Virus record (IMG/VR): IMGVR_UViG_3300025322_000026
Coordinates: 1-54,461 of that record
Strand: one strand, 5' to 3'
DNA from: a virus
DNA: 54,461 nucleotides
Positions 2,687 through 44,440 of the stretch are shown one piece after another; position 1 is the first letter of the stretch; each line of letters begins with the position of its first letter. The position numbers were made by a program, and so were the translations under genes. The notes beneath the pieces were generated by a model that was not told where the DNA came from, did no database searches, and saw only the letters and a program-made list of their open reading frames with translations.

Positions 2687-3694
2687 CTATGGGCAGTTTG
2701 CGCCCGCGGTCACTTGGCAGTTCGCCCAGACTTTCAGATCGACCAATGGAACCAGAACTGAAGCCCCTGTGGCAGTCTTGCCGTATTTGAGATGGCGTCC
2801 GATTTCCATGGATTCCATTCTTAGAGGCACATTCCCATTCTGGAATTCATCGGCCAATGGAAGGAAATCCATGGCTTCACTGAGTTGAAGATCTGTCTTG
2901 ACTAGTGAGAATAGATCAGGCCATATCGTCGGACTGGCGATGATCGTCGGCAGCCAGTCGTTACGCATCGCCAATAGGACATCCTGAGCCCGGCGCGTCC
3001 GTGCCACATCATCCGATTGAGTCCTCGCCCGGATGTAGCACAGGAGTTGCGCGCCGGTCATATGATACTCCACCCCAGCTTTCCAGTTGGAGTCATAGCC
3101 ACCTTTGCTTCCCGCGCCGAGCAGACCTTTGTAGTTTCCGCACCAGTCGAAGTAGGTTTCCTTCGGGACCACGGTCAGTCCGCCAAGAAGGTCCGCCACT
3201 CGAATCAGACCATCGAAGTCGATACCATAAACGCCGGCATTCACGAACAGGCCGAAGTTCTGTTTCACCGCCTCGCGGACTCCATCGAAGCCTCCCCGCA
3301 GGTAGGCGACATTGATCCGATCCTTCTTCCAGCTTCCGTCGACCAAGACATCGACTAGGGTATCGCGCGGAATACTCAGGACAATAGCCTCTTCGATTTC
3401 CTGAGAGGCACCGGGCATGATCCGCAGACTGACGATGATGAAAGTATCCGTTCTGAGCCCGATCCCCTCCCGATCCCGATCCATGCCGACCAGTACCGCG
3501 GTGACATACTGGGGTAGAGCCTGCGTCGGTACGGGGATAGCAGTCGGTTCAGCCGTTTCCGATGGCTTCACCGTAGGCAGTTGAGCAGCCGCCGCGCGCA
3601 AGACCGCTGTGGGCGATGGTTCTGGCGTAGGACCGCTCGGATAGCATCCAGTCAACAGAGACGCGATGAAAAGGACGATAGCGATTCGTCTCAT
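2687..3694 (-). CDS. LytR-CpsA-Psr (LCP) family lipoprotein
   Basis: The 335-aa protein has a lipoprotein signal (L-L-T-G-C, Cys17), a P/T-rich linker to about residue 60, then an LCP phosphotransferase domain. Family landmarks in order are V-G-M-D-R-D-R, L-R-T-D-T-F-I-I-V, S-I-P-R-D-T, D-R-I-N-V-A-Y, I-D-F-D-G-L-I-R-V-A-D-L-L-G-G, and Y-I-R-A-R-T-Q-S-D-D-V-A-R-T-R-R-A-Q. These include the conserved Arg and Asp residues that bind the polyprenyl-phosphate substrate. LCP enzymes attach glycopolymers such as wall teichoic acid or capsule to peptidoglycan or protein. One in a phage lysis block is unusual. A GAGGAG site and a candidate promoter lie upstream. Confidence 0.85.
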   Translation of the reverse strand: MRRIAIVLFIASLLTGCYPSGPTPEPSPTAVLRAAAAQLPTVKPSETAEPTAIPVPTQALPQYVTAVLVGMDRDREGIGLRTDTFIIVSLRIMPGASQEIEEAIVLSIPRDTLVDVLVDGSWKKDRINVAYLRGGFDGVREAVKQNFGLFVNAGVYGIDFDGLIRVADLLGGLTVVPKETYFDWCGNYKGLLGAGSKGGYDSNWKAGVEYHMTGAQLLCYIRARTQSDDVARTRRAQDVLLAMRNDWLPTIIASPTIWPDLFSLVKTDLQLSEAMDFLPLADEFQNGNVPLRMESMEIGRHLKYGKTATGASVLVPLVDLKVWANCQVTAGANCP

Positions 3695-17636: not shown

Positions 17637-17938
17637 GCCTCAGCCTCGGCTATCTGGCTCTCTTTGATGGCATATCCATTCTGGAGAGTAGCTTTGATGT
17701 GAAAATCCCAGAGAACTTGTTCGGATTCCAGTTTCATGTGCATTGGGAATTCAGTCGGGAAAAAATCTTTCAGGCTACCATCCGAATTGGTTCCGCCATC
17801 AAACCTTTCCAAGCGAAAAGCTAGACCCATGAGAACTTCCTTTAGGGCTTTGCGGACCATAATCGCTGGAGGATCACCGCTGAGCGGCGTATAGTCTAGC
17901 GAAAGATGAACGATCTCGTTCCGAATCGGAAGTGTCAT
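17633..17938 (-). CDS. Small protein of unknown function, connector region
   Basis: The 101-aa protein overlaps the giant glycosyltransferase stop by ATGA and the 37-aa peptide start likewise. It looks like an alpha/beta protein (I-V-H-L-S-L-D-Y-T, V-L-W-D-F-H-I-K-A-T-L). No family is recognised. Its position after a protein with a connector-like C-terminus is compatible with a head-tail assembly role. Confidence 0.45.
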   Translation of the reverse strand: MTLPIRNEIVHLSLDYTPLSGDPPAIMVRKALKEVLMGLAFRLERFDGGTNSDGSLKDFFPTEFPMHMKLESEQVLWDFHIKATLQNGYAIKESQIAEAEA

Positions 17939-20900: not shown

Positions 20901-20949
20901 ATTCCTCTTTACCGACCTCCGAAAGATGAGGCACCATCCGAATCTTCAC
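17935..20949 (-). CDS. GT4-GT2-GT2 glycosyltransferase fused to helix-hairpin-helix domain
   Basis: The 1004-aa protein joins several modules. Residues 1-290 form a GT4 (GT-B) domain with E-T-F-G-I-G-T-L-E-A-L-A-S-G-V-P-V-L-G. Residues 295-540 form a GT2 domain with V-D-D-G-S and metal-binding D-A-D-D at about 384. Residues 550-790 form a second GT2 domain with D-A-D-D at about 635 and W-E-D-V-D-Y. A C-G-C-A-G-G turn, a small beta domain (about 840-890), a P-rich linker and a helix-hairpin-helix region (about 945-1000, L-P-G-I-T then Y-R-G-I-G-E-A-K-A) follow. Three sugars could be added in sequence. The last 170 residues look like a separate connector-region protein fused in frame. Start GTG overlaps the upstream stop. 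Confidence 0.85.
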   Translation of the reverse strand: MKIRMVPHLSEVGKEESGIRRVIEAYFKYLPAFGAKMVKPGSENYDLKIGHAGIAPDADVSHLHGLYWSGDYDSAGWEFKANQSVVQSIRSARKITVPSKWVAETIQRDIRVDPVVIPHGITWDDWQHNEGNEGYILWNKNRAADVCSPEPMAKLARMFPTITFVSTFAPKLRPRNVKEIGLVAHATMKKIVQAAGVYLSTTKETFGIGTLEALASGVPVLGFAHGGNVDLIQHGINGYLATTGNYDDLADGLEYCIQNRETLGANARELAKEWTWEKACEKVYAVYQEAMFEPPATAAIIIPCWNYSDKVGRAIDSALRQSYELLEAVVVVDDGSDDGKELERVVADFHDPRLRLVRQERGGVSAARNRGIAEVRSQYITCLDADDSIDPRFLSACINALEGHPELGIAYTKLQWIKPDGSSGVSEWPGDFDFDQQLRRRNQIPTACVFRRAMWQRLGGYRSRYEGSGGAGAEDAEFWLRAGAYGWGAVKATDAPLFVYSWQSGRVSGDRNYQEADWLAWHPWTRDGQHPFASVATPERLSHPVRQYDEPIVSVVIPIGPGHETKVIDALDSLEAQTLRRWEVNAVWDAGVEIPQSLKDAYPYVRWFPSAGKLGAGHSRNLGASKARAPFLMFLDADDWLYPEALEEMVNAWGQEEAIVYSDYVGKATISNPDELNPKLRSKLYYRDPITGHSVIGYKAADYDPNRAQAQPEDNPYIWTNVTCLIPRSWHQEVGGFDESLRTWEDVDYHWRMARAGKCYHHLEKELLVYRFDTGNRRELGLQEHSTVVEYLRRKYEEIEVVACGCAGGTKARSPMPPAKMMVGGNGSAVKDTSMADDDFVLIKYMHPNRGTHVVVGGATKTKYGYRSGGGAEQFLVHKADVANQPQYFQQMQTIVPPAPKLPPPAPPQPIAEDPFRPVAVQGSAVQEVQRIIPRAKAKFDLQKLPGITADIHRQLKEAGIEGPEDLINLGIEGLTEYRGIGEAKAERIIGAVKQIMKMAEAEA

Positions 20950-21149: not shown

Positions 21150-21424
21150 CAGGGATAGATCCTCTGGATGATCTCACCTGCGATTATCGCACAACTTGGG
21201 GGGCCACTGACCCAGACTTCATAGAGTTTCTCAGGGGCCACACTATGACCTTTCATCATGCCGCGGATCGTCTCTCTTCCCACTCCCAATGCGCTCGCGA
21301 GACCGGATATGGTTTTGTATCTGTCTCGGTATTCCAGGACAATGATCTTCGTGCGTTTTCTGACCTCACCCCAAGGCCAACGCGCCCTATTTCGTTCGGG
21401 ATCGACAGCCCTAAGCGTTGACAT
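21149..21424 (-). CDS. Small helix-turn-helix-like protein
   Basis: The 91-aa protein contains T-I-S-G-L-A-S-A-L-G-V-G-R-E-T-I-R-G-M-M-K-G, a pattern matching a helix-turn-helix. Flanks are basic. The start at 21424 has GAGGG 8 bp upstream; a TTG two codons earlier is possible but less likely. It may be a DNA-binding regulator or another domesticated endonuclease tail, since similar motifs end the HNH proteins. It follows the sulfotransferase with a 14-bp overlap. Confidence 0.5.
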   Translation of the reverse strand: MSTLRAVDPERNRARWPWGEVRKRTKIIVLEYRDRYKTISGLASALGVGRETIRGMMKGHSVAPEKLYEVWVSGPPSCAIIAGEIIQRIYP

Positions 21425-22079
21425 AGCCAAGGTCCCTCATTGTTCCGCCAAAGATCTTGAGGCCCTCTTGAAGGACATCCTTTGGCATTTCTTGCCGCCA
21501 TCGGCCGACCTTGCCATGGCCAAATGCTAGTCTTTGATGATCGGGGCCATAGGGCATATCCTCAGTGATGTTGTTAATTCGCACACTCCAGGACTGCCGC
21601 CACACAGCTTCCCGTACTGCATGAGGATCAAAAGATAGGTCGAGGAAAACCAATATCCGGCCAAGTTCTCTGGCTGTCCTCTGGTGCAGATCCTCATATC
21701 TGATCCGGACACCTATTTCAGAACAGGCTTCAATCGCGCTTGACCAGGATTCCATCCTGATGAGTGCATCAATCCAGGTTGACTTATAGTATTCGCGTAG
21801 ACTCAGAAGGACATCCCGAGGATCTCGAACGATTTGAGCAACCGATTTCCCGATGAAGTTGCCAAGGCCACGGTCTCGATTCGATGGATCAAATAAGCCG
21901 TCAGGATGCCTCAACCGGATTACGAAAGGTCCTGGTCTATCATGGCCCTCATCGGCATTCGATGGAAACTCCTTTCCTGATTCAATGGGACAATTCAGGA
22001 CATGCCCAAGTAACCGGGAAAGCCATGAATTTCCGCTCCTCGGGAACCCGAGTACGAAGATCTCCTGTCGCTCAGTCAT
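21411..22079 (-). CDS. Sulfotransferase (PAPS-dependent)
   Basis: The product has the classic sulfotransferase signatures: F-V-L-G-F-P-R-S-G-N-S-W at residues 8-19 (binds the 5'-phosphosulfate of PAPS), V-R-D-P-R-D-V-L-L-S (3'-phosphate binding), I-R-Y-E-D-L, and near the end G-K-V-G-R-W-R-Q-E-M, the counterpart of the R-K-G-x-x-G-x-W loop. It would transfer sulfate from host-made PAPS to a sugar hydroxyl, judging from neighbours. I prefer the ATG at 22079 (222 aa), which overlaps the FkbM stop by 8 bp. The frame is open to 22130. Sulfotransferases are rare in phages. Confidence 0.85.
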   Translation of the reverse strand: MTERQEIFVLGFPRSGNSWLSRLLGHVLNCPIESGKEFPSNADEGHDRPGPFVIRLRHPDGLFDPSNRDRGLGNFIGKSVAQIVRDPRDVLLSLREYYKSTWIDALIRMESWSSAIEACSEIGVRIRYEDLHQRTARELGRILVFLDLSFDPHAVREAVWRQSWSVRINNITEDMPYGPDHQRLAFGHGKVGRWRQEMPKDVLQEGLKIFGGTMRDLGYVNA

Positions 22080-22728
22080 TGACAACGAAGATGCTATTGG
22101 TTCCGTCTGCGTAGACTTTGGAGTAGCCATGTTTCTGGATCATCTCGGGAAGTCCTTCACCGATCCGGCGCAGTTCTTCTCCAGGATGGTTTTCCATGAG
22201 TTGCCACACCATGACCTTGGGCCTCCAGTATGCTAGGTTGAATCCATTCAGTACCAGCCGTTCACTTCCGTAGGTATTTACACAGAGCAGATCAAAGTCT
22301 GTGGGCCATGCGTAGTATTCGAGGGCCCAATCTAGTGTGACTGTCCGGACATTCACGAATTCGTCGGGCGTCAGGGCCGCGCCGCTTCGGTTCATCACAG
22401 GAGCATGGTGGAGTTCCAGAGTTGAGAAGATGTCCGAAATGTACAGAGGCTGGTTATCGTTCTCCCCGGATACCGCGTAGGGAAGTACGAGGGCATCGTG
22501 GCCGGCGTGATTGCGGACGCACTTCCCAAATGCCTCTGGCAGAGGCTCCAGGAGTAACCCCTTCCATCCGAGTTCCGAGAATTCCCATGTCTTCGACCAG
22601 CGCAGTCCATCATAAGCACCGACATCCACGAAATAGCCATCATCCTTGAAGCCAACATGGTTCTCTAGGATCTCGGGGAGATTCTGAAGCTGACAGTCTG
22701 ACACGACCTTGTAGGATGATGTCATCAT
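22072..22728 (-). CDS. FkbM-family methyltransferase
   Basis: The 218-aa protein matches FkbM-type SAM methyltransferases: Y-F-V-D-V-G-A-Y-D-G (SAM-binding loop), W-K-G-L-L-L-E-P-L-P, then V-R-T-V-T-L-D-W-A-L and D-L-L-C-V-N-T-Y-G-S-E, where the family usually has I-D-x-E-G-x-E. That last motif deviates: N-T-Y-G-S-E replaces D-x-E-G-x-E, so one acidic residue is missing. FkbM enzymes O-methylate sugars and other hydroxyls. Starts overlap the GT10-like stop by ATGA. Confidence 0.8.
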   Translation of the reverse strand: MMTSSYKVVSDCQLQNLPEILENHVGFKDDGYFVDVGAYDGLRWSKTWEFSELGWKGLLLEPLPEAFGKCVRNHAGHDALVLPYAVSGENDNQPLYISDIFSTLELHHAPVMNRSGAALTPDEFVNVRTVTLDWALEYYAWPTDFDLLCVNTYGSERLVLNGFNLAYWRPKVMVWQLMENHPGEELRRIGEGLPEMIQKHGYSKVYADGTNSIFVVND

Positions 22729-26969: not shown

Positions 26970-28991
26970 CTAGTTGGGCAGCTCGGATGGCCCCAGCATC
27001 TTGTCCAAGAAGGGGATGCCGGTCGCGCGCTCAATGGGTGCTTCGGTCTCTTTCGGATGGTCCTTCCCGAGGGTGGTCCGACCATCGATCCGGGTCTCTT
27101 TGCGGCCGATGATCGATTCCGCGCGAGCCTTCAGGGATGCCTTCGGCGTCTCTTCGATGACCTGCTTGATCTTGGTCTCGTCGTCTAGCGCGAGGGCTTC
27201 GATTTTTTCGGTCAGACCCTTCACTGCATCGCGGATCTCGACCAGGACCCCACCGAAGACTTTGAGAGCCTCTTCGGTATCGGATCGGAGTTCCTCAACA
27301 TCGGTCGGCTTCTCTTCCTCTGGAACAACTTCTTCTTCGGGCTTCGTTTCGACTTTTTCCTCGTCCACTTCGGCCTCCTTCGTCTCTGCCTTTGGTTTGT
27401 CCGCCCCGAGCAGATCCTTGACGAAGGCCGTTAGGTCCTTCTTGCCGGGAACGGTCATGTCCTCGCTCTCATAGAGCGCGGTCAACTTCTTGATTGCAGC
27501 TCCTTTCTTCGGACCTTCGTACTTGTTTCCTCGGTAGCCCTCATGGAGAGCCGCCCAGGCAGCACCCATCAGGCCATGGTCCACTTTCCCATTCTTCATC
27601 ACCTGAAGATGCCAAGTCGTCGGCTTCTCTTCGTCCTCGACAACGAGATAGTCGCTGGGCTTCCCGGCTTTCTCGCCATCCGCCAGACCTTTCAGAAGGT
27701 TGAAATCTTCCAAAACAGATGGCGATGCAGTCTCGGAATTCACAACGAGAGTCATATTGACCGTCGGGCCATTCGGTTCTGTAGCCTCGGTCTCGGCCGC
27801 GGCCTTATGACTTACCCCAGCTGCTTCGAGTTCTTTGGTCTTCTCTTCCCCGGTCTTCATGATGAGATCGATCAATCCATCCGCGCCCGTCTCATCCTCG
27901 ATGGCTTTCAGTGCATCGATTTGCTGTTTGTTCACAGACATCACCTCCATCTTGGGATTATGCGGGTTGGCCGCGGCGTTCCCGGGAAGAACCGTGGTTT
28001 TCTGTTTCTCAAACCAGTCGTAGACGCCATCTTTTCGGTCTTCGGCTCGATAAGAGAATTCATGCGATGCACCCCAACCCTCAGGAGAGATGATTTCATG
28101 ACTGTCTGGGTGCGCCTCGAAGAACGCTTTAAATGCCTGGCCAATCTTCGTATCGTCGAAGGTCCCCATCTCGGCCAGGAAGCGACCGCTCATGCCCTGC
28201 CAGCGGATCGTCCCGAACTCAGTTCCGGGGATGTGCCAGAAGTCAAAGGCTCCCTTGGTTTCATCATCAGCATGGCGTTGGACGTAATTCTCAATCGCTT
28301 TTGTGCGGAATGTTTCTTCGTCCCGATCCTCAAACCCGTTGGTCGACCAGACCAGGAGCCAGTCTTTCTTGTCCTTGCCCTTGAACAGCTTGATCCCATG
28401 GGTTCCTTTGATCTCGGGCTTATCGTCATAGGTTGCCCATCCGAGGAAGGCTCCCATGTCATCCATGAGTTTGGAGAAGCGATCCTTGAGGTCCTGGACG
28501 AATCGAAGTTTCGAGGTTCTCAGGCACCGGCCAGCTTTCTCCGCGGCTTCAATCCATTCTCTCCTCTCCGTGACCTCTTTCCATTCATCACGTGGCGAGA
28601 ATTCATAGCCGCCATCAGTCTCGGTGTACGAAGTTCGGTAATATTTGCCCCCCAATTTCACGATGACTTCTTGCATTGATGGCCACGAATCACAGATCCA
28701 GGGCACTGGCGAATAGTTGACCTGTTCTGGTGCAGCGAGCGTCGGAGGTGGTCGAAACAGTTCCTCAAGGGACTGCTGAAGTTGTGATCGAACCTCCCCT
28801 GCCCCTTCTTCACCATCTAGGAGTGCCTTGTCTTGCTTCGCCACTTCGGCCTCCTTCTTGGCCTCCCGCCACTTGGAATAGCAGATGGCGGCTGCTTGCT
28901 TCGGATCCTTCGCAGTACCATCCTCGATGACAAGAGGAACGCATCTGGATATAAAGTCTTTCTGAATTTCTCCCTCTAGTGGCTCTGGCAT
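26970..28991 (-). CDS. Prohead protease-scaffold fusion candidate
   Basis: The 673-aa protein has an N-terminal F-I-S-R-C-V-P-L ... A-A-I-C-Y-S-K-W motif (residues 13-41) that I know from other phage head proteins. A central domain (about 215-350) has W-S-T-N-G-F-E-D-R-D, F-D-F-W-H-I-P-G-T, I-S-P-E-G-W-G-A-S-H-E-F and L-P-G-N-A-A-A-N-P, a layout like capsid maturation proteases with His and Ser. The rest is helical and highly charged, like a scaffold, with an E/K/P-rich stretch near 540-580. It directly precedes the capsid gene. Its own start lacks a clear ribosome site, possibly because HNH 2 is inserted just upstream. Confidence 0.7.
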   Translation of the reverse strand: MPEPLEGEIQKDFISRCVPLVIEDGTAKDPKQAAAICYSKWREAKKEAEVAKQDKALLDGEEGAGEVRSQLQQSLEELFRPPPTLAAPEQVNYSPVPWICDSWPSMQEVIVKLGGKYYRTSYTETDGGYEFSPRDEWKEVTERREWIEAAEKAGRCLRTSKLRFVQDLKDRFSKLMDDMGAFLGWATYDDKPEIKGTHGIKLFKGKDKKDWLLVWSTNGFEDRDEETFRTKAIENYVQRHADDETKGAFDFWHIPGTEFGTIRWQGMSGRFLAEMGTFDDTKIGQAFKAFFEAHPDSHEIISPEGWGASHEFSYRAEDRKDGVYDWFEKQKTTVLPGNAAANPHNPKMEVMSVNKQQIDALKAIEDETGADGLIDLIMKTGEEKTKELEAAGVSHKAAAETEATEPNGPTVNMTLVVNSETASPSVLEDFNLLKGLADGEKAGKPSDYLVVEDEEKPTTWHLQVMKNGKVDHGLMGAAWAALHEGYRGNKYEGPKKGAAIKKLTALYESEDMTVPGKKDLTAFVKDLLGADKPKAETKEAEVDEEKVETKPEEEVVPEEEKPTDVEELRSDTEEALKVFGGVLVEIRDAVKGLTEKIEALALDDETKIKQVIEETPKASLKARAESIIGRKETRIDGRTTLGKDHPKETEAPIERATGIPFLDKMLGPSELPN

Positions 28992-29005
28992 TCGATGTAG
29001 TCCAA

Positions 29006-29014
29006 TGTTATAAT
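29006..29014 (+). promoter_or_regulatory. Extended -10 promoter of HNH 2
   Basis: TGTTATAAT (TGn plus perfect TATAAT at 29009-29014) lies 6 bp before the HNH 2 ATG at 29021. A transcript would begin about at the ATG, so the message may be leaderless. A weak -35-like CTGGCA sits 18 bp upstream. Confidence 0.5.
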
Positions 29015-29020
29015 AGAGAC

Positions 29021-29512
29021 ATGAAAACGATCCTAGGCCACCCAGAGTACAGAATCACGACAGACGGAAGAGTATTCTCCCTGCGCGGTGAGATCGCACA
29101 GATCCGACGTTCTGCCTATGATGGAGGACCACGCTATGCCTCTGTGCATCTCTGCGGAAATGCCAGTGGAAACTACTATGTACATCGCCTCGTCCTTGAA
29201 ACTTACATTGGGCCATGCCCGGGGGGGATGTGTACTAGGCACCTGAATGGGAGATCCCTTGATAATCGTCTTGAAAATCTCAGATGGGGAACGCCCGCCG
29301 AAAATGTAGCGGACCAGATTGCCCACGGCACCTTTTCTGTTCAACGGGGCGAGGCACACGGTGGCTCTAAGCTCAGCGAAAGCGACATTCGTGAGATCCG
29401 AAATCTTGCGGCGAGCCGTAGATATTCCCAGTCGGAGATCGCCAAAAGATTTAATATCAGCCAGCCCTTGGTCAGTCTGATCCATCTTCGGAAACGCTGG
29501 GAACATATTTGA
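29021..29512 (+). CDS. NUMOD4/HNH homing-type endonuclease 2
   Basis: The 163-aa protein starts with a NUMOD4-like region (Y-R-I-T-T-D-G-R-V-F-S-L) and has an HNH_3 core, Y-V-H-R-L-V-L-E, then C-T-R-H-L-N-G-R-S-L-D-N-R-L-E-N-L-R-W-G-T. The tail (L-S-E-S-D-I-R-E-I-R, F-N-I-S-Q-P-L-V-S-L-I) is a helix-turn-helix whose layout matches HNH 1. It lies antisense in the head operon between the protease and two small genes. A hairpin follows 42 bp later. Confidence 0.85.
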   Translation: MKTILGHPEYRITTDGRVFSLRGEIAQIRRSAYDGGPRYASVHLCGNASGNYYVHRLVLETYIGPCPGGMCTRHLNGRSLDNRLENLRWGTPAENVADQIAHGTFSVQRGEAHGGSKLSESDIREIRNLAASRRYSQSEIAKRFNISQPLVSLIHLRKRWEHI

Positions 29513-30671: not shown

Positions 30672-31838
30672 TCAGCGTGGCCATTGTTCCAAGGTGAATT
30701 CCTGAAATGCTATACCTCCTGGACGCAGACTGCCATCATCGTTCATTAAAGCATAGGCTTTCGGGCCATCAATGCTGAACCAAACCGCGTATGGAATCTG
30801 TAAGTCGACCACAGCTCCCATCAGACCAGTTACTGTCTGGGGAAATAGATCCTGTTGACCGATCTCATTCGTGATAACCTGTTTCCCGGTTTTATGACTC
30901 ATGAATTCAACTGCCTCTGAAAAAGCTAAAGTATCTGGGATGTACCAATGGATATTGACGAAATCATTCGGGCCGTCGCGATAGACATCAAGGAGTTGTT
31001 TGCCTTTCACGATCTGGCCTTGGACATTGGCACTATCCAACTGGGCTTGTTCCTCAGGTGTGAAGACTCTTTGCCGAAACGAATCGGCCGCACTAATGTC
31101 TCCTTCTTCAATATAGCTATTCCAAACGAGGAGCGCGACCAGTTTGCTTACCATCCCACCATTGGTACAAGGGACCGCGTAGACGTGAGAGACTTGGCAG
31201 GCAACTTCTAGCTCTTCGGCATATTGAATCGGATCCCCGGAATAGAATGTTGTCGAGTTTTCTTCGTTCTCTACAGCAAGAATCAAGGGGGGATTCTGGC
31301 CAATGACTTCTTCCAATATCTGGCGATAGGTTTCAAGATCTGTTGGCGGATCCGTTGGATTCAGTGGACCCCCATTGGCTCGGATCGTGAGGACGACTAT
31401 GAGGCCAGCGTCCTCAGCCGATCTGCATTCCTCGCATGATCCATCCCATCGATCAAGGAAAACCGAATTAGGTCGGAAATAGATCGCCCCAAGTTCCTGG
31501 ACCATGGTGATACGTTCGCCAATCGACATCCCAGGTGCTTGGAGCATCAAACCGAATGGATTAGCCAAGGTTGCTATCTGCGTGCTAGTAGGCTGAATCG
31601 TTGGAATCAATGTTAGGGTATGTGTTGCAGTAGGGATTAATGTCACGGTCATGGTATTTGTTGGGATTGGGATGGGCGTTCGTGTAACTATAGGGATCGG
31701 GGTAGGAGTGGAACATACTGGCCGATTCGGGAAAAGCCGACACCACCATGGAATAGTTATCTCAGAACTGGCGATGTTCAAAGCCAGGAGAGATCCTAAG
31801 AGCATAACAATGGCTACACTGATCGCGATTTTCTTCAT
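30672..31838 (-). CDS. Secreted or surface-anchored TIM-barrel glycosidase candidate (clan GH-A-like)
   Basis: The 388-aa protein has an N-terminal signal or anchor (M-K-K-I-A-I-S-V-A-I-V-M-L-L-G), a T/P/I-rich linker to about 95, and then an alpha/beta barrel-like domain. Two glutamates stand where GH-A enzymes hold the acid/base and nucleophile: L-I-L-A-V-E-N-E-E-N and V-I-T-N-E-I-G-Q. An F-V-N-I-H-W-Y-I-P strand supports this. It may degrade host surface glycan. A secreted enzyme between head genes is odd, and its linker resembles the Thr/Pro proteins at the left end. A start with GGAGAG 11 bp upstream is plausible. Confidence 0.6.
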   Translation of the reverse strand: MKKIAISVAIVMLLGSLLALNIASSEITIPWWCRLFPNRPVCSTPTPIPIVTRTPIPIPTNTMTVTLIPTATHTLTLIPTIQPTSTQIATLANPFGLMLQAPGMSIGERITMVQELGAIYFRPNSVFLDRWDGSCEECRSAEDAGLIVVLTIRANGGPLNPTDPPTDLETYRQILEEVIGQNPPLILAVENEENSTTFYSGDPIQYAEELEVACQVSHVYAVPCTNGGMVSKLVALLVWNSYIEEGDISAADSFRQRVFTPEEQAQLDSANVQGQIVKGKQLLDVYRDGPNDFVNIHWYIPDTLAFSEAVEFMSHKTGKQVITNEIGQQDLFPQTVTGLMGAVVDLQIPYAVWFSIDGPKAYALMNDDGSLRPGGIAFQEFTLEQWPR

Positions 31839-31853
31839 CTGTAATGGCTCTCC

Positions 31854-32521
31854 TTATCCGCCGATGAGGGAAGGGGGCCGACCTGGAGTAACGGGTTCAT
31901 CAGTCGGTGAGAGTGTACATCCACACCAATATCCTTTGCAAGCTAAATCACGGCTCCGTGGCAGGATTCCGTACCTCGCCCAGGTGCTCGCCCTGTAGAC
32001 GCGGCCATTCATATTTCGGCAATCCGCGCAATGCTCCTTGATGGGATTCCAAGTCCATCGCATCGGGCGGTCTGCACAAGCCATCTGGGCTGCGAGGTTC
32101 TTTATTCTGCCCCATTGATTCGCCCACATGGACGCGCGGATGATGAAGCGGTCAACCTTGGTATCTTCCTCCGCCCGTGCTGCCACAATCTCCTCAGCGA
32201 ATGGCAGTACCCGCTCGATCTCATCGCTCGTTTCCTGGTCGAACCTTTGAAGTTCCTCGGGCGATGAATCCCGCGGGAAGTTACCCCACAGTCCTTCGAT
32301 CCCTCTCGCCAAGCCTGACCAAAGAACCGATTGATCATTGAGATGTGGGAATCTACATAGCCGAAGAGGTCGATCCTATTGAACCATAGTGATCGGATCA
32401 GAGTCTTGAGCCTAGTTTCGTAGTCAGCCTGGGATTTGATCTCGGACGCGTAGCCGACCTTCAGGCCCATGTTCTCCGCAACAGCCAATGCCGCCAGCGC
32501 AATAACCTGAGATCGCTTCAT
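31854..32521 (-). pseudogene. SPP1 gp7-like minor head protein split by a frameshift
   Basis: Two overlapping frames together make one minor head protein. The first (32521 start) reads M-K-R-S-Q-V ... F-G-Q-A-W-R-E-G-S-K-D-C-G and then turns into basic noise. The second (ending 31854) continues with N-F-P-R-D-S-S-P-E-E-L-Q-R-F and ends with the family C-terminus H-C-A-D-C-R-N-M-N-G-R-V-Y ... C-K-G-Y-W-C-G-C. The change of frame falls at a G4 run (C4 at 32284-32287); one extra G would restore D-C-G-G-N-F-P-R-D. It is a deletion, a sequencing error, or programmed -1 slippage. Family role: minor head or portal-associated protein. Confidence 0.7.
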
Positions 32522-35514
32522 CGCTTGTGTACCGTCAATAGTAGCACAAGTTCTTCCTCGTCCTCATCCCAGAGGGTGGTTGTGGTTGAGGCCCTGCGCC
32601 TTCTTCGCCGCCCAGTAATGATGATCGTCGGCGGCAGGGTCGTCGTCGCCGTCAAGGTCGTGACCGTTGTGCCGCTGGTCGTCGTGCTGGTCGTCGTCGA
32701 CGTGGATGAGGTAGTCGTTGAAGTACTGGTAGTCGTGCTAGTCGTGCTCGTCGATGTGGAGCTAGAAGTAGTGGTCGAACTCGAAGTCGTCGAGGTGGAG
32801 GTAGACGAGGAAGTCGTTGTGCTACTGGATGTGCTCGTCGTCGAGGATGTGCTAGTTGCAGTCGTCGTCGTGCTTGTAGACGTACTTGTCGATGTACTTG
32901 TGGAGCTGGTCGAAGTCGAGGTACTGGTAGAGGTAGAACTGGACGTGCTGGTCGATGTCGAGGAACTTGTCGAAGTTGAGGTACTTGTGCTCGTCGAACT
33001 TGTGGAAGTTGACGTTGTGGTCGATGTCGATGTCGTACTCGTCGAAGTGCTTGTGCTGCTAGATGTCGTCGAGGTCGACGTGGAGCTACTGGTCGAACTT
33101 GAAGTGCTACTGCTCGTTGAAGTACTCGTCGATGTCGAGGTTGAGGTTGAACTACTCGATGTGCTTGAAGAGGTTGATGTTGACGTGGAACTGGTAGAGG
33201 TACTTGTCGAAGTTGAAGTTGAACTCGACGTACTGGTTGACGTAGAAGTGGATGTTGATGTGCTGCTTGTGCTCGTCGAAGTTGAAGTAGATGTGCTGGT
33301 CGTCGTTGATGTCGAAGTCGAACTCGTTGTAGAGGTCGTCGAACTGAGGGTCGTTGCTGTGGTCGTGGTTGAAGTTGAGGTTGTCGAGGTGGACGTGGAA
33401 GTTGAAGTGGTTGACGTTGACGTGCTCGTTGACGTTGAGCTGGACGTGCTAGTAGACGTACTGGTGCTTGTCGAAGTAGATGTACTCGTTGAACTTGTCG
33501 AGGTGGATGTTGAACTCGTGCTCGTAGATGTGGACGAGGAGCTAGTAGAGGTTGAGGTGCTCGTAGAACTGCTGGTTGACGTAGAAGTAGAGGTGCTTGT
33601 TGAGGTACTTGTAGAGGTTGATGAACTCGATGTGGTTGTGCTTGTAGAGGTGGTTGTCGATGTGGAACTCGTGCTTGTACTCGTCGACGTAGACGTGCTG
33701 GTGCTCGAAGATGTTGAGGTACTGGTGGAAGTAGAAGTCGATGTACTAGACGAAGTTGTACTCGTAGAGGTTGAGGTCGTAGATGTTGAGGTCGACGTGC
33801 TGCTAGTGGTCGTACTCGTAGAAGTCGTCGTCGAAGTGGTTGTTGTCGTTGAGCTAGTGGATGTTGACGTAGAAGTAGTCGTCGAACTGGAAGACGTGCT
33901 TGAGGAAGTAGACGAACTGGTGCTCGTGGAGGTCGAGGTTGAAGTACTCGTAGAAGTTGAAGTACTTGTTGAGCTAGTAGTCGTGCTCGTACTGGTAGAA
34001 GTGGATGAAGTCGATGTGGTTGTAGAGGTCGACGACGACGTAGTCGTTGATGTAGATGTCGAAGTAGTGCTGGTCGTCGTCGTGGTTGTCCCGGCCGCCG
34101 AGGCCAGAGGCCAGAAGCGGTGATCGTCGAAGAGGAGATAGACATGCCCACCCCGGCGAGGAGGGACGGGCAAAGTCGTTGTTGTCGTGGTCGAAGAAGA
34201 GGTTGTTGAACTCGATGTAGTCGTAGAACTACTGGTACTTGTCGTGCTTGTGGACGTTGAAGTGCTGGAGGAACTCGTACTGGTTGATGTCGATGTAGTT
34301 GTGCTCGACGAACTTGTGCTGGTCGATGTTGAGGTACTGGACGATGTGGATGTTGAGGTTGACGTGGAAGTTGATGTACTGGTTGAACTAGTCGATGTCG
34401 ATGTGCTCGTGGTACTAGAACTCGTTGAGGTTGATGTGCTAGTCGAACTAGAGGATGTACTAGTAGAAGTTGAGGTACTGCTACTCGTGGAAGTCGAAGT
34501 GGAAGTGCTAGTTGATGTCGAAGTGCTACTCGAACTTGTGGAAGTGCTCGTACTGGTTGAGGTACTTGAGGTCGAAGTGGAGGTAGATGTACTCGTAGTC
34601 GTCGTGCTTGTTGAGCTTGATGTACTCGTTGAAGTGGAGCTACTCGTCGAGGTAGAAGTTGAGGTGGACGTTGAAGTACTGCTGCTCGACGTGCTTGTCG
34701 AAGTAGAAGTAGTCGTTGAACTCGTGGATGTTGACGTTGAGGTACTGGTGGAAGTTGTGCTCGTCGAGGTACTGCTAGATGTTGACGTACTGGTCGAGCT
34801 ACTTGTTGATGTCGAGGTACTAGTACTTGTGGAAGTAGAACTGCTGGAGGTTGAAGTCGTAGTGCTGGTAGAAGTCGAACTCGTCGACGTTGATGTCGAA
34901 GTACTGGTGGAGGTTGTGCTTGTGGAAGTGCTTGTAGTGGTACTAGTCGAGGTTGTTGTCGACGTCGTTGTGGTGGTAGTCGTCGCCGGGGCTTCTTGCC
35001 CTAGCCACCACTTCCGCTCATCAAAGAATGTATAGACTTGATTTACCCGTCGTGGCGGATCTACCGCCGTCAACATTGTTGTGGTTGTGGATGAACTCGT
35101 TGTCGAACTTGAAGTACTTGTGCTTGTGCTGCTCGTTGAGGTAGATGTTGAACTTGTGGAAGTCGAACTGGAGCTGCTCGTACTCGTAGATGTGGAAGTA
35201 GAGGTGGAAGTAGAAGTAGACGTACTTGTGCTGCTCGTCGAGGTCGATGTACTCGTGCTAGTTGAGGTTGAGCTAGAACTTGTTGAGGTTGATGTCGAAG
35301 TTGAGGTACTCGTTGATGAAGATGTCGATGTAGACGTGCTGGTACTGGTTGAAGTAGATGAACTTGAAGTAGAGGTTGAAGTAGAGGTTGAAGTCGACGT
35401 TGTGCTGGTAGAAGTCGATGTGGATGTACTGGTCGACGTTGAAGTCGTCGTCGTGGTGGTAGTGGCAGGCTGCTCTTCAGCGGCCGTCAGAAGCGGCTGC
35501 CAAAGCCAGCTCAC
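32518..35514 (-). CDS. Giant Ser/Thr-rich mucin-like protein
   Basis: The 998-aa protein is almost entirely Ser and Thr, in three tracts separated by two short islands. The N-terminus is M-S-W-L-W-Q-P-L-L-T-A-A-E-E-Q-P-A. The islands (nt about 34984-35075 and 34090-34176) share P-P-R-R-x-x-x-V-Y-x-x-F-D-x-x-x-x-W. The C-terminus has T-I-I-I-T-G, an R6 run, a D/E cluster and L-V-L-L-L-T-V-H-K-R. Both AGY and TCN serine codons are mixed throughout, so selection seems to act on the protein. GTG start overlaps the upstream TAG by one base, and its stop overlaps the gp7-like start (ATGA). No signal peptide is evident. A heavily O-glycosylated virion stalk or coat is my inference. Confidence 0.85.
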   Translation of the reverse strand: MSWLWQPLLTAAEEQPATTTTTTTSTSTSTSTSTSTSTTSTSTSTSTSTSSSSTSTSTSTSTSTSSSTSTSTSTSTSTSSSSTSTSTSTSTSTSSTSTSTSTSTSTSTSTSTSSSSSTSTSSTSTSTSSTSTSTSSSTTSSSTTTTMLTAVDPPRRVNQVYTFFDERKWWLGQEAPATTTTTTTSTTTSTSTTTSTSTSTTSTSTSTSTSTSSTSTSTTTSTSSSSTSTSTSTSTSTSSSTSTSTSSSTSTSTTSTSTSTSTSTSSTTTSTSTSTSSSSTSTSTSTSTSTSSSTSTSTSSSTSTTTTSTSTSTSTSSTSTSTSTSTSSSSTSTSTSTSTSTSTSSSTSTSTSTSSSSTSTSTSTSSSTTSTSTSTSSTSTSTSTSTSTSTSSSTSTSTSTSSSSTTTSTSTSTSSSSTSTSTSTTSTSSSTTTSSSTTSSSTTTTTTLPVPPRRGGHVYLLFDDHRFWPLASAAGTTTTTTSTTSTSTSTTTSSSTSTTTSTSSTSTSTSTTTSSTSTSTSTSTSTSTSTSTSSSTSSSTSSSSTTTSTSTSTSSTTTTTSTTTSTSTTTSSTSTSTSTTSTSTSTTSSSTSTSTSTSTSTSSSTSTSTSTSTSTSSTSTTTSTSTTTSSSSTSTSTSTSTSTSTSTSSSTSTSTSTSSSSTSTSTSSTSTSTSSTSTSTSTSTSTSTSTSSSTSTSTSTSTTSTSTSTSTTSTSTTTTATTLSSTTSTTSSTSTSTTTSTSTSTSTSTSSTSTSTSTSTSTSSSTSTSTSTSTSSTSTSTSSSTSSSSTSTSTSTSTSTSSSTSSSTSSSTSTSTTSSSTSTSTSTTSTSTTTSTSTSSTSTSTSTSTSSSTSTSTSSSTSTSTSTSTSSTSTSTSTSTSTTTTATSTSSTTSTSSSTTTSSSTSTSTTSSSTTTSSSTSTSTTSTTTSTSTTTSSTSTTTSTTTSGTTVTTLTATTTLPPTIIITGRRRRRRASTTTTLWDEDEEELVLLLTVHKR

Positions 35515-35861
35515 TATGTTACCTTACGTAATGACCAGCCGATGCTCCGATCCGTGCCGGCGATCTTTATGACGGAGACTTCCCAGCCGTGACCGACCAA
35601 GACCGTTGGCATCGACCATCCCGGCCTTGCCTGCAAGCCTACGAAGCTCCATTGCTCGATGAGCCTCTGGGTCGCGCCCGCGCCGTTGACCTTCTCGTAG
35701 AATCGAACGCGGTATTCATCCCCCGCGACCATGTTGGCGAAGTCGATCCAGCACTGGAGAATACAATCGTCCGTTTGCGGCGTCTGCGATGTGCTATCGG
35801 ACGCCAAGAAGTATTCCGTCGTGCTGATGGTCGCACTGTCGTCCACGAATGTGATCGTCAT
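35514..35861 (-). CDS. Small structural protein, mucin neighbour
   Basis: The 115-aa protein is beta-rich: M-T-I-T-F-V-D-D-S-A-T-I-S-T, I-L-Q-C-W-I-D-F-A-N-M and Y-R-V-R-F-Y-E-K-V-N-G-A-G. I place the start at 35861, overlapping the preceding stop as ATGA; the frame is open to 35915 but that part overlaps the upstream gene. It looks like a virion decoration or fibre piece. The family is not recognised. Confidence 0.5.
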   Translation of the reverse strand: MTITFVDDSATISTTEYFLASDSTSQTPQTDDCILQCWIDFANMVAGDEYRVRFYEKVNGAGATQRLIEQWSFVGLQARPGWSMPTVLVGHGWEVSVIKIAGTDRSIGWSLRKVT

Positions 35862-36703
35862 CCGCCGACTCCAATTGCCGCTCCGTTGTAACCCGTATCC
35901 GGCGCGTTGAGACACCGGCCCCGGATGTAGATATGCTCACCCGCCGGCACCGGGCAATAGAACGCCCAAGGCGAGAGATCCCGCAGTGGCCCGCCTACTG
36001 CCTCCGATGTTGTGCCCATGTGCATCAAGCGGCAAATGATCTGCTTATTGGAGGCGTCGCCATGAGCGATCTCGATATAGGTCTGCTCGGCGGTGATCGT
36101 CGCGTTGTTGATCTGATAGGCAATCTGCCACCACCACAGGTCCTTGACTGTCGCACCCAGATCCACCCATGACCCATCCGCCGCGTTACCCGGTGTGAAG
36201 GATACGCCCAAGCTGTTCGTGATCGTCCCCACGACCTCTGCATACGCGCCGACAAGAACATTGTGCGGGCCGCTCGGCTTGCCGTTGGCTTTCGCCATGA
36301 CGCCGACCGTGCCCGCCGTCGCGTTGGCTCCTTTGATGCGGCAGCCAACGGACGCGCCCGAGGGGATGCAAATCGGTAAGACGAAGTGGTGGCCGCCAAC
36401 ACCATTCAAGCCGCCCGAGGCCCCCATCGGGAAGGCCCCGACAATGGCTGTGAAACTCGTCCCGCCAGCAGGATCGGCCCCAACCTCCATGACCTGCGGC
36501 TTGGCCTGGCCGCCTATATTCCCATCACGAACATCAACCTGTAGGCAGCATGCCTCATTCACCAGGGCCGATAGTAGGGTTGTCCAACTTCCCCAAGCGT
36601 CCGATGTGCCAGGCGTCACCGATGTGCCCGGAGCATTACTCGGGTTAGTTCCCCAGTTATCTACATACCAATTTGTATGCGAGAGTTTTCCCGATAGGCT
36701 CAT
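35858..36703 (-). CDS. Virion decoration-like structural protein
   Basis: The 281-aa protein is beta-rich with many Gly, Ala and Thr. It starts M-S-L-S-G-K-L-S-H-T-N-W-Y and ends I-Y-I-R-G-R-C-L-N-A-P-D-T-G-Y-N-G-A-A-I-G-V-G-G. Its place in a run of fibre and decoration genes and the absence of enzyme motifs suggest a capsid decoration or fibre head. Family is unknown. Confidence 0.5.
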   Translation of the reverse strand: MSLSGKLSHTNWYVDNWGTNPSNAPGTSVTPGTSDAWGSWTTLLSALVNEACCLQVDVRDGNIGGQAKPQVMEVGADPAGGTSFTAIVGAFPMGASGGLNGVGGHHFVLPICIPSGASVGCRIKGANATAGTVGVMAKANGKPSGPHNVLVGAYAEVVGTITNSLGVSFTPGNAADGSWVDLGATVKDLWWWQIAYQINNATITAEQTYIEIAHGDASNKQIICRLMHMGTTSEAVGGPLRDLSPWAFYCPVPAGEHIYIRGRCLNAPDTGYNGAAIGVGG

Positions 36704-40974: not shown

Positions 40975-41952
40975 TCACGTCGGCCATTCGCCAGTCTCAT
41001 GCCCATGAATCTCAGCGTACTCATGCCAAGATTCAAGGACTTCATCCACGGTGTACTTCGCTGTCGTCTGAATATGGTCCCGATCAGCCTGCGCTGCGGC
41101 CACTGCGGAGTCTCTAGTTTCGTTCAATGTCTTCAACCAATCCGCGTGGTTCTTACATTTTTCGTAATAGCCAGCATAGAGCATATCAAGATACTTCTGG
41201 CCACCCAATGAATAGGCGGTGATCATGAAGTTGCGCCACATATCTGTTTGGAACCAATGGTATCCCCGCTTCCGCGCCGCGAGGTGGTAGTATTGCATCT
41301 CAGGGTGCGACTTCACCTGATAGCCATACATCTGCGCCTTGATGTCCGTATAGGGTTCGCCGCCTCCATAGATCCCTAGCGCGGGATGGTAGCCGTCGAT
41401 CTCATCCCAGACATTCTTGTCGATCAGGATGTTAGCGCCCCCATTCATCAAGATGCGGTAGTCAGGCGGCTTCGGCGGGATTCTCGTCCAGCTCCCCCAG
41501 AACATATCCCGCTTCCACCGATAGCCGTACACGGTCCTTCCGGGCTTGTCGAGGAAGTACCGCAACCCGAGGTGCATCACGCCCTCGAAGGACTGCTTGA
41601 ACGCCAACGCGGCCCGATACGCTCCAGGAACCGGCATCGTGTGAGCATCCAGGAACCAGAGATATTTCCCGCTCGCCTGCTGTGCGCCGAAGTTCCGTGA
41701 CTTGTAGATACTCCCCTCGGCCAGATGATGACGATGGTAGTAGCCAGCCCCATGCGGCCATTTCTGGTCAAGCCAGTGATAGACATGCTGATCATCCTCG
41801 CGCTCGGCCTCTTCGCCGTTCGTGACGATGATGTACTCCCGAACGAAGCCTGGATCCGTGCCGCGCGGACCTAGCTCCTCCTCAAGTGCCTGGAGCGTCC
41901 AGACCAGATTGTGCGGTTCACCCCGCTCTGAGATTATGATGCTGACGAACAT
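40975..41952 (-). CDS. GT-A glycosyltransferase with D-A-H motif, GalNAc-transferase-like
   Basis: The 325-aa protein is a GT2/GT27-like enzyme: V-S-I-I-I-S-E-R at the start, Y-K-S-R-N-F-G-A near 83, L-W-F-L-D-A-H at residues 98-104, G-G-A-N-I-L-I-D, and G-G-G-E-P near 196-200. Polypeptide GalNAc-transferases use a D-x-H metal motif and a later G-G-x-E acceptor-loop motif, so the parallel is notable. GT2 enzymes of phages may share it, so polypeptide specificity is not proven. It overlaps the methyltransferase by 19 bp and ends just before HNH 3, about 5.5 kb from the Ser/Thr protein. Confidence 0.75.
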   Translation of the reverse strand: MFVSIIISERGEPHNLVWTLQALEEELGPRGTDPGFVREYIIVTNGEEAEREDDQHVYHWLDQKWPHGAGYYHRHHLAEGSIYKSRNFGAQQASGKYLWFLDAHTMPVPGAYRAALAFKQSFEGVMHLGLRYFLDKPGRTVYGYRWKRDMFWGSWTRIPPKPPDYRILMNGGANILIDKNVWDEIDGYHPALGIYGGGEPYTDIKAQMYGYQVKSHPEMQYYHLAARKRGYHWFQTDMWRNFMITAYSLGGQKYLDMLYAGYYEKCKNHADWLKTLNETRDSAVAAAQADRDHIQTTAKYTVDEVLESWHEYAEIHGHETGEWPT

Positions 41953-42554
41953 AGGGCAATGATCGGTGTCTCTCGGCTATCAAGATCCTCGGTCTCATTC
42001 AGTTGGTAATTCAGAAGTTTCACATCGCCGAAGTATCGCTTCAATATCCCGGGAAATGTCGCTGGCGTCCATTCGTGCTCGTTCAGCCGCTCGTCTTTCT
42101 GGCGATAGCGTATTGCATTGGGCACTGTGATCAATGCTCGATCAGCCAACAAAGCTAAGGCGTTCAGCGCCCTATCCGTGTCATGGATATGCTCGAGAAC
42201 CTCGATCATCACCGCGAAACCGTAGTGCGTAAGCTCACCACCAGCGCCCAGGATGTCACCCTGGAGCCATCGAACATTCGGAAGCGGGAAGCATTTCTGA
42301 GCGAAGCGAACCGCCGCGGGATCGATCTCAATGGCATCAATCCAATCGACCGTGTTGGCATACTGGAGCACCCCGATGCCCGTACCGAAGCCCACTTCAA
42401 GCACTTGCCCAACACCCACAACACCCGCGAGGACATTCGGGAGCCTCTCGTAGATGTCCATCTGTGGCGACAGAAGATAAGGCAACCGGCGCCACACGAC
42501 AGCAGTCGCTCCATTCAGTTCGTCGGTCACGATAGCCTCAGTAGTCTGAGCCAT
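41934..42554 (-). CDS. Class I SAM-dependent methyltransferase
   Basis: The 206-aa protein has V-L-E-V-G-F-G-T-G-I-G-V-L-Q-Y near residue 51, I-E-I-D-P-A-A-V-R-F-A, L-Q-G-D-I-L-G, and V-M-I-E-V-L-E-H-I-H-D, the standard motifs of class I methyltransferases, with E and D binding SAM ribose. It would modify a sugar or nucleotide in cassette B. It overlaps the next upstream gene by 28 bp. Confidence 0.75.
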   Translation of the reverse strand: MAQTTEAIVTDELNGATAVVWRRLPYLLSPQMDIYERLPNVLAGVVGVGQVLEVGFGTGIGVLQYANTVDWIDAIEIDPAAVRFAQKCFPLPNVRWLQGDILGAGGELTHYGFAVMIEVLEHIHDTDRALNALALLADRALITVPNAIRYRQKDERLNEHEWTPATFPGILKRYFGDVKLLNYQLNETEDLDSRETPIIALCSSAS

Positions 42555-43174
42555 TTTCGGCGCGACTTCCCTATCAGCGAATGTTCAGCTCCCCGATGGA
42601 AGATGTAGGGCGTCTTGCTCACGATGAAACGCACTCCCTGTCGTCTCATGTTCCTCGTCCACAGACCACCCCAGTCATAGTAACTCTGGGGGAAATCTCC
42701 CACAAGATCATAGATCCGCCGACGCATGACCCACACGCCCCCAACCCGCTTGGCGATCTTATCTCCCCTGCGCGTGATCCCGAGAACATACTTCCCTTTC
42801 GGATCTGCATCGTGCCTCAACGAGATGACATTCTCGGGATAGTAGTTCACCATCTTGACCGCGGCGGCAAGCCATCTCTTTTGATACCCGAGATCGTCAT
42901 CTAGGAGAACTAGGTTCGGCGACTTCGCTACTGCCACGCCCTGATTGAGACCGGCCGCTTGACCGACATTGTGGCTGTTCGTGATAATCAAATCCGCGCC
43001 GAGCGCCTCGATCAGGTCACGATGGATGCCTCCATTATCGACAACAATGAACTCGTACCAGTTGCGCGGTAATCCCGTTTCTCCGATCTCCGCGAAGCTA
43101 TCTTGACACAGACGATACCGCGCCTCATTCGGACAATAGGTAGCAAGGATGATACTGGCCGCGAGCTTCGCCAC
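42527..43174 (-). CDS. GT2-family glycosyltransferase
   Basis: The 215-aa protein shows the GT-A layout: A-S-I-I-L-A-T-Y at the start, E-F-I-V-V-D-N-G-G, N-V-G-Q-A-A-G-L-N-Q-G, and the metal motif L-L-D-D-D-L-G near 93. V-W-V-M-R-R-R-I-Y follows. It is short for GT2 but has all core parts. It begins 3 bp after the GT-B gene, in the same operon. Confidence 0.8.
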   Translation of the reverse strand: MAKLAASIILATYCPNEARYRLCQDSFAEIGETGLPRNWYEFIVVDNGGIHRDLIEALGADLIITNSHNVGQAAGLNQGVAVAKSPNLVLLDDDLGYQKRWLAAAVKMVNYYPENVISLRHDADPKGKYVLGITRRGDKIAKRVGGVWVMRRRIYDLVGDFPQSYYDWGGLWTRNMRRQGVRFIVSKTPYIFHRGAEHSLIGKSRRKWLRLLRLS

Positions 43175-43177
43175 ACG

Positions 43178-44440
43178 CTATTGTCCCTCAATCGCTGGCC
43201 ACAGGTGGTTTGCCCATACCGCCTCAAGGCTCCGTTCCTTGCGGATCTTCGAATGGTTGGCGAGGATGAAATTGTTCTGCATCAGATAAGCTATCCCGCC
43301 AGCGACTCCATCCATGTATTCGCGCCGATCACTGTACTTCGTTTCCGTCTCTCCGGGCATCCCAGTCTGTGTGTCGATGTTCGAGGAGAACTTATAGAGT
43401 AATGCCCTGCCATCCCATTGGCGGAAGACTGGTAGATCGAAATTGAGTACGAGACCACACCGCTTCCAGGCGGCTTCAGGCACCGTGAGGGGATCGGATT
43501 CAGACCTCGAAGGATGGATGAACACATCCGAGTATTCCATTAGGTCCATCACGGCCTCATGGGGAACGTGGTAGCCATAATCCTTATCAAGCCCCGAGCA
43601 TTCAATCGACGTGAAGAAGAGAGGAACCTTTGGAGGCTTATCTGCGAACGCGATCAATTCCTTCCGGTAGTCTGCTTTATCGCCACCTGTTGAGTGAAAA
43701 TCCACGATGATAAGCCGCGCATCCCAGCCGCGTCCGACCAATTCCCGGAAGATCTCAACCAAGACCTCGGGTTGCTTCCCGCGATCTAGCCTGGCCGGAT
43801 AGACCGCGATGACATCGGCTTTCCACAGATCGCCGACCTCAACCATGCGCCTGGCGACAGGATGGAACAACTCGGTTACATCAATCGGGTTGGGGATCTC
43901 CACGATCTCATCAATCTCGTAACCGAACTGTCCGCCTTTGCGTTTCATCTCTTCCCGGTGCATGGCGACAAGGTGAGACTTCGGAAACTTCCCTGTCAGC
44001 TCCTCCCGGAACCGCCCGGTCTTCGCCGTTGTCCCGAGATCTGTTGAAGAATGGACCCAGTGTAGCCACCGGACATCCGAACTGGCAGTGAATCTTCTGG
44101 CCGCGACATGCTGTTTCCACATATTCTCCTGATAGAGCAGGTCGTGGGTCAGGATGACATCCACGCCATCCAGCCTCGCCCGAAACTGATCTACCAAGGA
44201 ATCGATTTCACCCTCAGACTTAGCCGTCACGTTGACGATGTTGTTCCCGATCTCGCCCGGATCGTATTCCCGGATGTCCGCATCCCGGTAGGCCCCGTTC
44301 CGACTGAACCCGGTACGGACCAATAGCCGAGGCTGATAGCCATTCCTCGCCAGCATCTTGATCTGGTTGTCCACAACCCCACACAGGGAATAGGCAGGAT
44401 CGTGGCTTACAAAGTCGGTAAGGATCGCTACGGTCTTCAT
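43178..44440 (-). CDS. GT4-type (GT-B) glycosyltransferase
   Basis: The 420-aa protein has a Rossmann N-terminal half (V-A-I-L-T-D-F-V-S-H, H-W-V-H-S-S), a P-N-P-I-D-V-T link, and a C-terminal half with A-V-Y-P-A-R-L-D-R-G-K-Q-P-E-V and F-I-H-P-S-R-S-E-S-D-P-L-T-V-P-E-A-A, matching the GT4 E-x7-E region. A GGAGG ribosome site precedes the ATG. It opens cassette B right after the portal gene (in transcription order). Confidence 0.8.
   Translation of the reverse strand: MKTVAILTDFVSHDPAYSLCGVVDNQIKMLARNGYQPRLLVRTGFSRNGAYRDADIREYDPGEIGNNIVNVTAKSEGEIDSLVDQFRARLDGVDVILTHDLLYQENMWKQHVAARRFTASSDVRWLHWVHSSTDLGTTAKTGRFREELTGKFPKSHLVAMHREEMKRKGGQFGYEIDEIVEIPNPIDVTELFHPVARRMVEVGDLWKADVIAVYPARLDRGKQPEVLVEIFRELVGRGWDARLIIVDFHSTGGDKADYRKELIAFADKPPKVPLFFTSIECSGLDKDYGYHVPHEAVMDLMEYSDVFIHPSRSESDPLTVPEAAWKRCGLVLNFDLPVFRQWDGRALLYKFSSNIDTQTGMPGETETKYSDRREYMDGVAGGIAYLMQNNFILANHSKIRKERSLEAVWANHLWPAIEGQ

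Follow-up and report, generated by a model that had tools for sequence, protein, structure and literature searches.

Eukaryotic mucins and viral mucin-like domains are long, Ser/Thr-dense scaffolds for O-glycans in which composition is kept over sequence. To our knowledge, descriptions of glycosylated phage particles are few, and phage-encoded virion glycosylation of mycobacteriophages was reportedly described by Freeman et al. in 2023. The virions of mycobacteriophages are glycosylated by a phage-encoded system, with the glycans on capsid and tail-tube proteins (PMC12619734, PMC11256854, PMC10877033). In bacteria, the serine-rich repeat protein (SRRP) Fap1 is O-glycosylated stepwise, with N-acetylglucosamine added first, by a system that was rebuilt in Escherichia coli (PMC5207161). 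We analyzed a stretch of viral DNA of 54,461 nucleotides (nt) (IMG/VR record IMGVR_UViG_3300025322_000026, positions 1 to 54,461; the window hereafter), in which positions 32518..35514 of the minus strand encode a protein made almost wholly of serine and threonine (S/T). This protein is probably a mucin-like virion component, and we infer that it is O-glycosylated in the cytoplasm by the phage's own glycosyltransferases (GTs).

The locus resembles each of these systems in part. Like the mycobacteriophages, the window phage encodes GTs; the difference is that the passages available from the three mycobacteriophage sources mention no S/T-tract protein. As in the SRRP system, in which a Ser-rich acceptor has GTs encoded beside it, an S/T-rich putative acceptor is combined here with a GT4-type GT, both in the window and in 56/75 clusters of related loci. 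However, Fap1 is a bacterial surface adhesin, and its initiating enzyme is the two-protein Gtf1-Gtf2 complex (PMC5207161). No second subunit of the Gtf1-Gtf2 type was found among the Pfam matches of the scanned genes, a search aimed at it not having been made. A virion protein would not need accessory Sec export of the SRRP type. With mucins the protein shares long, Ser/Thr-dense tracts of conserved composition, whereas it differs in being almost devoid of Pro, in its dominant S/T alternation, and in its cytoplasmic phage setting; homology is not claimed.

The tract gene is a single intact frame of 2,997 nt that starts with GTG and encodes 998 amino acids (aa), including 447 Ser and 442 Thr (89% Ser plus Thr). 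The frame and its division into three tracts are as described in a sequence-only reading of this DNA that preceded our analysis. Its layout is as follows.

32518..35514, minus strand: S/T-tract protein, proposed mucin-like virion protein and acceptor (open reading frame [ORF], composition, codon randomization, and S/T alternation)
35464..35514, minus strand: N-terminus MSWLWQPLLTAAEEQPA with the family motif MSWx[FWY]QPL, a start shared with the gene that follows the 35514 family in relatives
35077..35463, minus strand: S/T tract 1, residues 18 to 146
34984..35076, minus strand: non-S/T island 1, residues 147 to 177 (from the translation)
34174..34983, minus strand: S/T tract 2, residues 178 to 447
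34090..34173, minus strand: non-S/T island 2, residues 448 to 475, resembling island 1 (from the translation)
32674..34089, minus strand: S/T tract 3, residues 476 to 947, with few Ala/Leu interruptions
32518..32673, minus strand: C-terminal tail, in which an Arg-rich part is followed by an acidic one and then by LLL; like endings in a few family members (weak enrichment)

The two islands, DPPRRVNQVYTFFDERKWWLG and VPPRRGGHVYLLFDDHRFWPL, are alike; they comprise 28 to 31 residues, contain PPRR...VY..FD (followed by ..W), and possibly form a small repeated fold. The tract gene overlaps its upstream neighbor by 1 nt (TAGTG, with AAGG ahead) and its downstream neighbor by 4 nt (ATGA), which bears out the proposed coupling to genes on both sides. 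On the plus strand, long ORFs at 32525-34123, 34187-35035, and 35081-35572 encode Val, Glu, Asp, and Leu; they mirror the S/T tracts and would lead gene callers astray.

Usage is nearly even across the ten Ser/Thr codons, with AGY accounting for 38% of Ser, and the coding frame is open whereas the alternative two frames of the strand contain 8 and 34 stops. We compared the tract with simulated sequences in which each codon was drawn independently: 74 repeated 15-mers were observed versus 78 ± 21 in the simulation, repeated 12-mers and 18-mers matched the simulation as well, and the longest exact repeat was 20 nt in both. Tandem Repeats Finder detected short arrays only, which were 70 to 94% identical. 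The protein contains 641 S/T alternations versus 443 ± 14 in shuffled sequences, 14 standard deviations above chance, and runs of three are about as frequent as or more frequent than runs of two, which fits S-to-T and T-to-S point exchange over an old (Thr-Ser)n register. Since no memory of a DNA repeat is present and alternation lies so far above chance, selection acts on the hydroxyl residues; the DNA has lost the trace of its origin while these residues were retained. In pairs of equal-length tracts from related phages, third-position identity at shared Thr was 0.26 to 0.33, with saturation at about 0.25, and S/T identity was 0.73 to 0.81; the tracts compared were chosen as S/T-only runs of one length, so that the lack of other residues follows from this choice, which does not account for the S/T pattern or the recurrence of lengths. 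The idea that the amino acid pair rather than a DNA repeat is selected is supported. An origin of the tract by DNA repeat or slippage, or by chance, was ruled out by the independent-codon simulations, the shuffles, and Tandem Repeats Finder.

The sequence-only reading overlooked that the operon of the tract gene also contains GT and methyltransferase genes. Upstream of the tract gene, this operon carries a cassette in the order GT4, GT2, methyltransferase, and GT2.

43178..44440, minus strand: GT4-type GT-B glycosyltransferase, proposed main enzyme (Pfam PF00534, structure model, and invariant residues)
42527..43174, minus strand: GT2 glycosyltransferase (PF00535 above the cut-off; homologs beside GT4 in L285-L287)
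41934..42554, minus strand: S-adenosylmethionine-dependent methyltransferase, possible sugar methylation (PF13649/PF13489)
40975..41952, minus strand: GT2 glycosyltransferase (PF00535 at the cut-off; 47% homolog after GT4 in L282)

Relatives of the GT4 enzyme (GT 43178) were collected by GT sequence alone, and an S/T tract was scored within 10 kb; one was present at 65 of the 80 viral loci. When near-copies were merged among these 80 loci and eight loci from metagenome-assembled genomes (MAGs), 75 clusters resulted, of which 56 had a tract, in 54/56 cases on the same strand as the GT and at a median distance of 895 bp. Tracts were found in only 1/56 random contigs (p=3e-19), at 2/87 loci of the 35514 family, named after the gene directly upstream of the tract gene, and at 0/17 loci with relatives of another GT of the window, encoded at 17935; this last result indicates that GTs in general do not explain the link. 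The approach from the opposite side was a scan for S/T-coding DNA, which yielded at least 120 stretches, many with true mixed-codon S/T tracts. Among the matches listed, the GT4 family was present in 5/6 of the longest-tract contigs versus 0/50 random contigs, and GT2 scored above the Pfam cut-off in 10/29 contigs with stronger tracts versus 0/50 random contigs, or, for contigs of at least 30 kb, in 10/15 (again among the matches listed) versus 0/16, the random contigs for the GT2 comparison having been drawn by an arbitrary 15-mer. In the loci compared early, homologs of GT 43178 were seen in S/T-tract contigs only, and four tract phages inspected in detail carry sugar-nucleotide, GT, methyltransferase, or sulfotransferase genes in or near the run of the tract gene. 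S/T linkers also occur in tandem genes of L021, L043, L116, and L134, contigs without the GT4 family (for L116, within the fragment at hand); these are probably a different class.

The link between GT4 and tract extends across differing structural genes. The order capsid gene, S/T gene, GT is found in 43 clusters. L330, for example, encodes terminase, portal, major head protein (phrog_371, Phage_capsid_4), three small S/T-tailed proteins, two small genes, and GT4, followed by a UDP-sugar dehydrogenase, a GT2, a nucleotidyltransferase, and another GT2. The three tandem proteins (L330:8248-9150 and relatives) have a common head of ~50 aa (GDEYYNT...W.RWDG..W) and S/T tails, among which lengths of 39, 41, and 44 residues recur. 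The nearest relatives of the window's GT4 (49-61%) place the tract in other proteins, namely, a protein with a Sipho_Gp37 domain in L287, a protein with a weaker match to the window's Gp37-like protein in L282, and a protein similar to the window's beta-helix protein in L285. L286 (= G019) has the portal and other genes in common with the window, and its GT4, GT2, GT2, and interrupted S/T protein follow a tape-measure-sized gene, as a movable module would. The assignment of the tract protein to the virion, already suggested by the sequence-only reading, is supported by its operon position and by relatives in which tracts adjoin the major capsid gene or lie in a Gp37-like tail protein.

The AlphaFold model of GT 43178 is compact, with two domains in a GT-B fold and a mean predicted local distance difference test score (pLDDT) of 95, a predicted structure that suits cytoplasmic action. 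Foldseek and VIA-align matched it over its full length to GT4-family GT-B enzymes, including MshA, BshA, and TarM (3c48, 3mbo, 7qd7), with Foldseek E values down to 1.7e-13 and VIA Z scores of 15 to 18 (identity 10-18%, 310-368 residues aligned); the root mean square deviation of 16 to 19 is expected if the two GT-B domains are rotated. The enzymes GtfA/GtfB of the SRRP system were not among the VIA matches listed, though they may nonetheless be related. Residues R217, K222, E314, and E322 (R-x4-K, E-x7-E) are invariant in 57 GT4 relatives; for the family scan, the alignment was narrowed to A5, as a broader one was too diverse. We take the invariant positions to be the donor and catalytic residues, which an active GT4 would be expected to keep. 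Together with the confidently predicted fold, the invariant residues make GT 43178 look active. MshA, BshA, and TarM have the same fold and motifs but act on inositol, malate, or teichoic acid, whereas the S/T tract is a proposed acceptor for the phage GT. The query of 50,697 phage records with the window GT4 by tblastn returned no match, 39/57 members of the family have a match in the broad glycosyltransferase family PHROG 2170, and the eight relatives in MAG contigs are spread over several phyla. The enzyme class is known; what appears new is this GT4 branch with its connection to S/T tracts, and the literature searched yielded no account of phage virion proteins with S/T tracts.

Directly upstream of the tract gene lie two conserved genes.

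35514..35915, minus strand: 133-aa conserved partner gene directly upstream of the tract gene (alignment A1 and 80 relatives; order kept in the family)
35858..36703, minus strand: 281-aa conserved partner gene (AlphaFold model with two beta-sandwiches, pLDDT 88)

Both are kept in uncultured phages; comparison of the 35858 model with the PDB gave weak matches only, none of them informative (template modeling score of 0.41 at most). At 55 of the 80 loci, some by short or loose matches, a gene with an MSW-like N-terminus begins no more than 400 nt after the 35858/35514-type genes. The N-terminus of the window protein, MSWLWQPL(L), fits the pattern MSW-x-[FWY]-Q/x-P-[LI]; MSW, P7, and an aromatic residue at position 5 occur in 29/29 distinct strict matches, which were chosen by that very pattern. 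The bodies of this family differ widely, with Ala/Ser repeats in L002, Ser/Ile/Gly in L006, and Gly/Thr/Val and others elsewhere; the window alone has an S/T-only body, and any S/T run, even a short one, is present at 2/87 of the 35514-family loci. Judged by its N-terminus, gene order, and neighbors, the tract protein is a variant of a repeat-bodied family widespread in uncultured phages. The statement that no phage family resembles it is therefore not upheld, and proteins with S/T tracts are encoded by many viral contigs. The C-terminal ending is weakly enriched in the MSW family (5/51 versus 31/1162 ORFs). What distinguishes the window from other MSW-family loci is the upstream GT/methyltransferase cassette; portal relatives such as L011 lack the inserted block and have the 32102 homolog directly after the portal. 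Syntenic homologs without the tract, which the sequence-only reading had named as grounds for rejection, do exist, yet the tract goes with the GT, not with the family, and they therefore do not refute a glycosylated protein. The 50,697 phage records contained no close DNA relatives of this phage, and the genome contigs searched for a host contained no relative of the window's 25501 protein.

Further sugar-related genes lie elsewhere in the window.

21411..22130, minus strand: sulfotransferase, possible glycan sulfation (PF00685; tie to the tract system conjectural)
22072..22728, minus strand: FkbM methyltransferase (PF05050; tie to the tract system likewise conjectural)
17935-20949, minus strand: 1004-aa protein with GT1, two GT2, and helix-hairpin-helix domains

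The first two adjoin and could modify a virion glycan further. The 17935 GT is conserved at 17 uncultured-phage loci, some with the same portal, and no S/T tracts are nearby. Three other genes were noted: 30672-31838 (minus strand), between head genes, whose product has a TPTPIP-type linker and a hydrophobic N-terminus and looks by eye like a secreted glycosidase-like enzyme; 2687-3694 (minus strand), which encodes a protein with a LytR-CpsA-Psr domain within this phage genome; and 28979-29512 (plus strand), by eye an HNH-endonuclease-like ORF opposite in strand to the late operon, with homologs in L004 and L017.

Several points weigh against O-glycosylation of the tract protein by the cassette. 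The clusters are not independent, since 43/75 belong to one capsid lineage, in which 43/43 have tracts, although outside this lineage 13/32 clusters still do (p=3e-6 versus random). The GT query was taken from S/T-tract phages, which biases the sample toward more of them. A GT4 clade of eight (L297, L302, L304, L306, L310, L321, L322, and L347) has no tract within 10 kb, the L347 contig carrying one elsewhere, away from the GT. In the window, the tract gene is 7.7 kb and nine genes away from GT4. GT2 is present in 10/50 contigs of the 35514 family without an S/T body, and GT2 alone is thus not the marker; the non-S/T bodies in this family imply that the body can also work otherwise. Finally, DNA or host polysaccharide can also serve as acceptor for enzymes of the GT4 and GT2 families.

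One rival explanation is an unmodified flexible spacer, that is, an extended, soluble, protease-tolerant linker or fiber with an interchangeable body, the GTs acting elsewhere. Family members at the same position carry Ala/Ser, Gly/Thr/Val, or other repeat bodies, and numerous viral contigs that lack the GT4 family contain S/T or T-rich linkers; yet a spacer has no need to exclude Gly, Ala, Pro, and Asn over ~890 positions or to co-occur with one GT family, and the GT4 linkage lies far above the controls. We regard this explanation as unlikely. Alternatively, the cassette may target phage DNA or host surface polysaccharide (phage exclusion or serotype conversion), its proximity to the tract reflecting an inherited late operon. 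Phage GT-B enzymes can glucosylate DNA, matches in BFVD include DNA alpha-glucosyltransferases, and the predominance of one capsid lineage (43/75) would agree with such inheritance; but the link holds outside that lineage (13/32), the module has another genome position in L286, and the phage's other GT has no link to tracts (0/17), which makes this alternative quite improbable.

The conservation of hydroxyl side chains alone would also suit phosphate, acyl, or dehydration chemistry, or a directly extended beta or ice-binding-like repeat, and the phage does encode a sulfotransferase and methyltransferases. However, the linked enzymes are GTs, and the window proteins scanned, a subset of the genes, include no Pfam match to a kinase or lanthionine synthetase; we consider modifications of this kind very improbable. 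That the tract is an assembly or gene-calling artifact, with the antisense VEV/VDV ORFs being the real ones, deserves hardly any credence: long antisense ORFs do overlap it, but the 2,997-nt frame is intact and overlaps genes on both sides, its codons are too unrepetitive to confuse assembly, and similar tracts occur in many independent contigs.

Our preferred reading thus remains that of a phage mucin. The heavy O-glycosylation put forward earlier gains strong indirect support from the linkage to the GT4 family and to GT2 genes; the glycan itself we infer. The protein plan would comprise the N-terminal family motif, a body offering ~890 Ser/Thr residues as acceptors, and a charged/hydrophobic tail. 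In the cytoplasm of the infected cell, before or during assembly, the soluble GT4 43178 would act on Ser/Thr, and it and then the GT2 enzymes and the sugar methyltransferase would attach and extend O-linked sugars. The decorated, stiff, hydrated brush would then join the particle and probably shield it or tune adhesion.

More broadly, we lean toward a widespread, movable phage mucin system in which S/T-only tails on varied virion proteins (small capsid-adjacent proteins, tail proteins, and MSW fibers), a dedicated GT4, and lineage-specific cassettes would provide a glycan coat on many uncultured phages; judging by the GT search, sequenced cultured phages lack it. Sequence alone has yielded a proposed acceptor, a proposed enzyme, and sugar genes, conserved over many uncultured phages. 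Such a system would offer a compact cytoplasmic O-glycosylation pathway with an unusually dense acceptor and, if the reading is true, phages have mucins of their own, a point of relevance to the stability, shielding, and adhesion of the particles.

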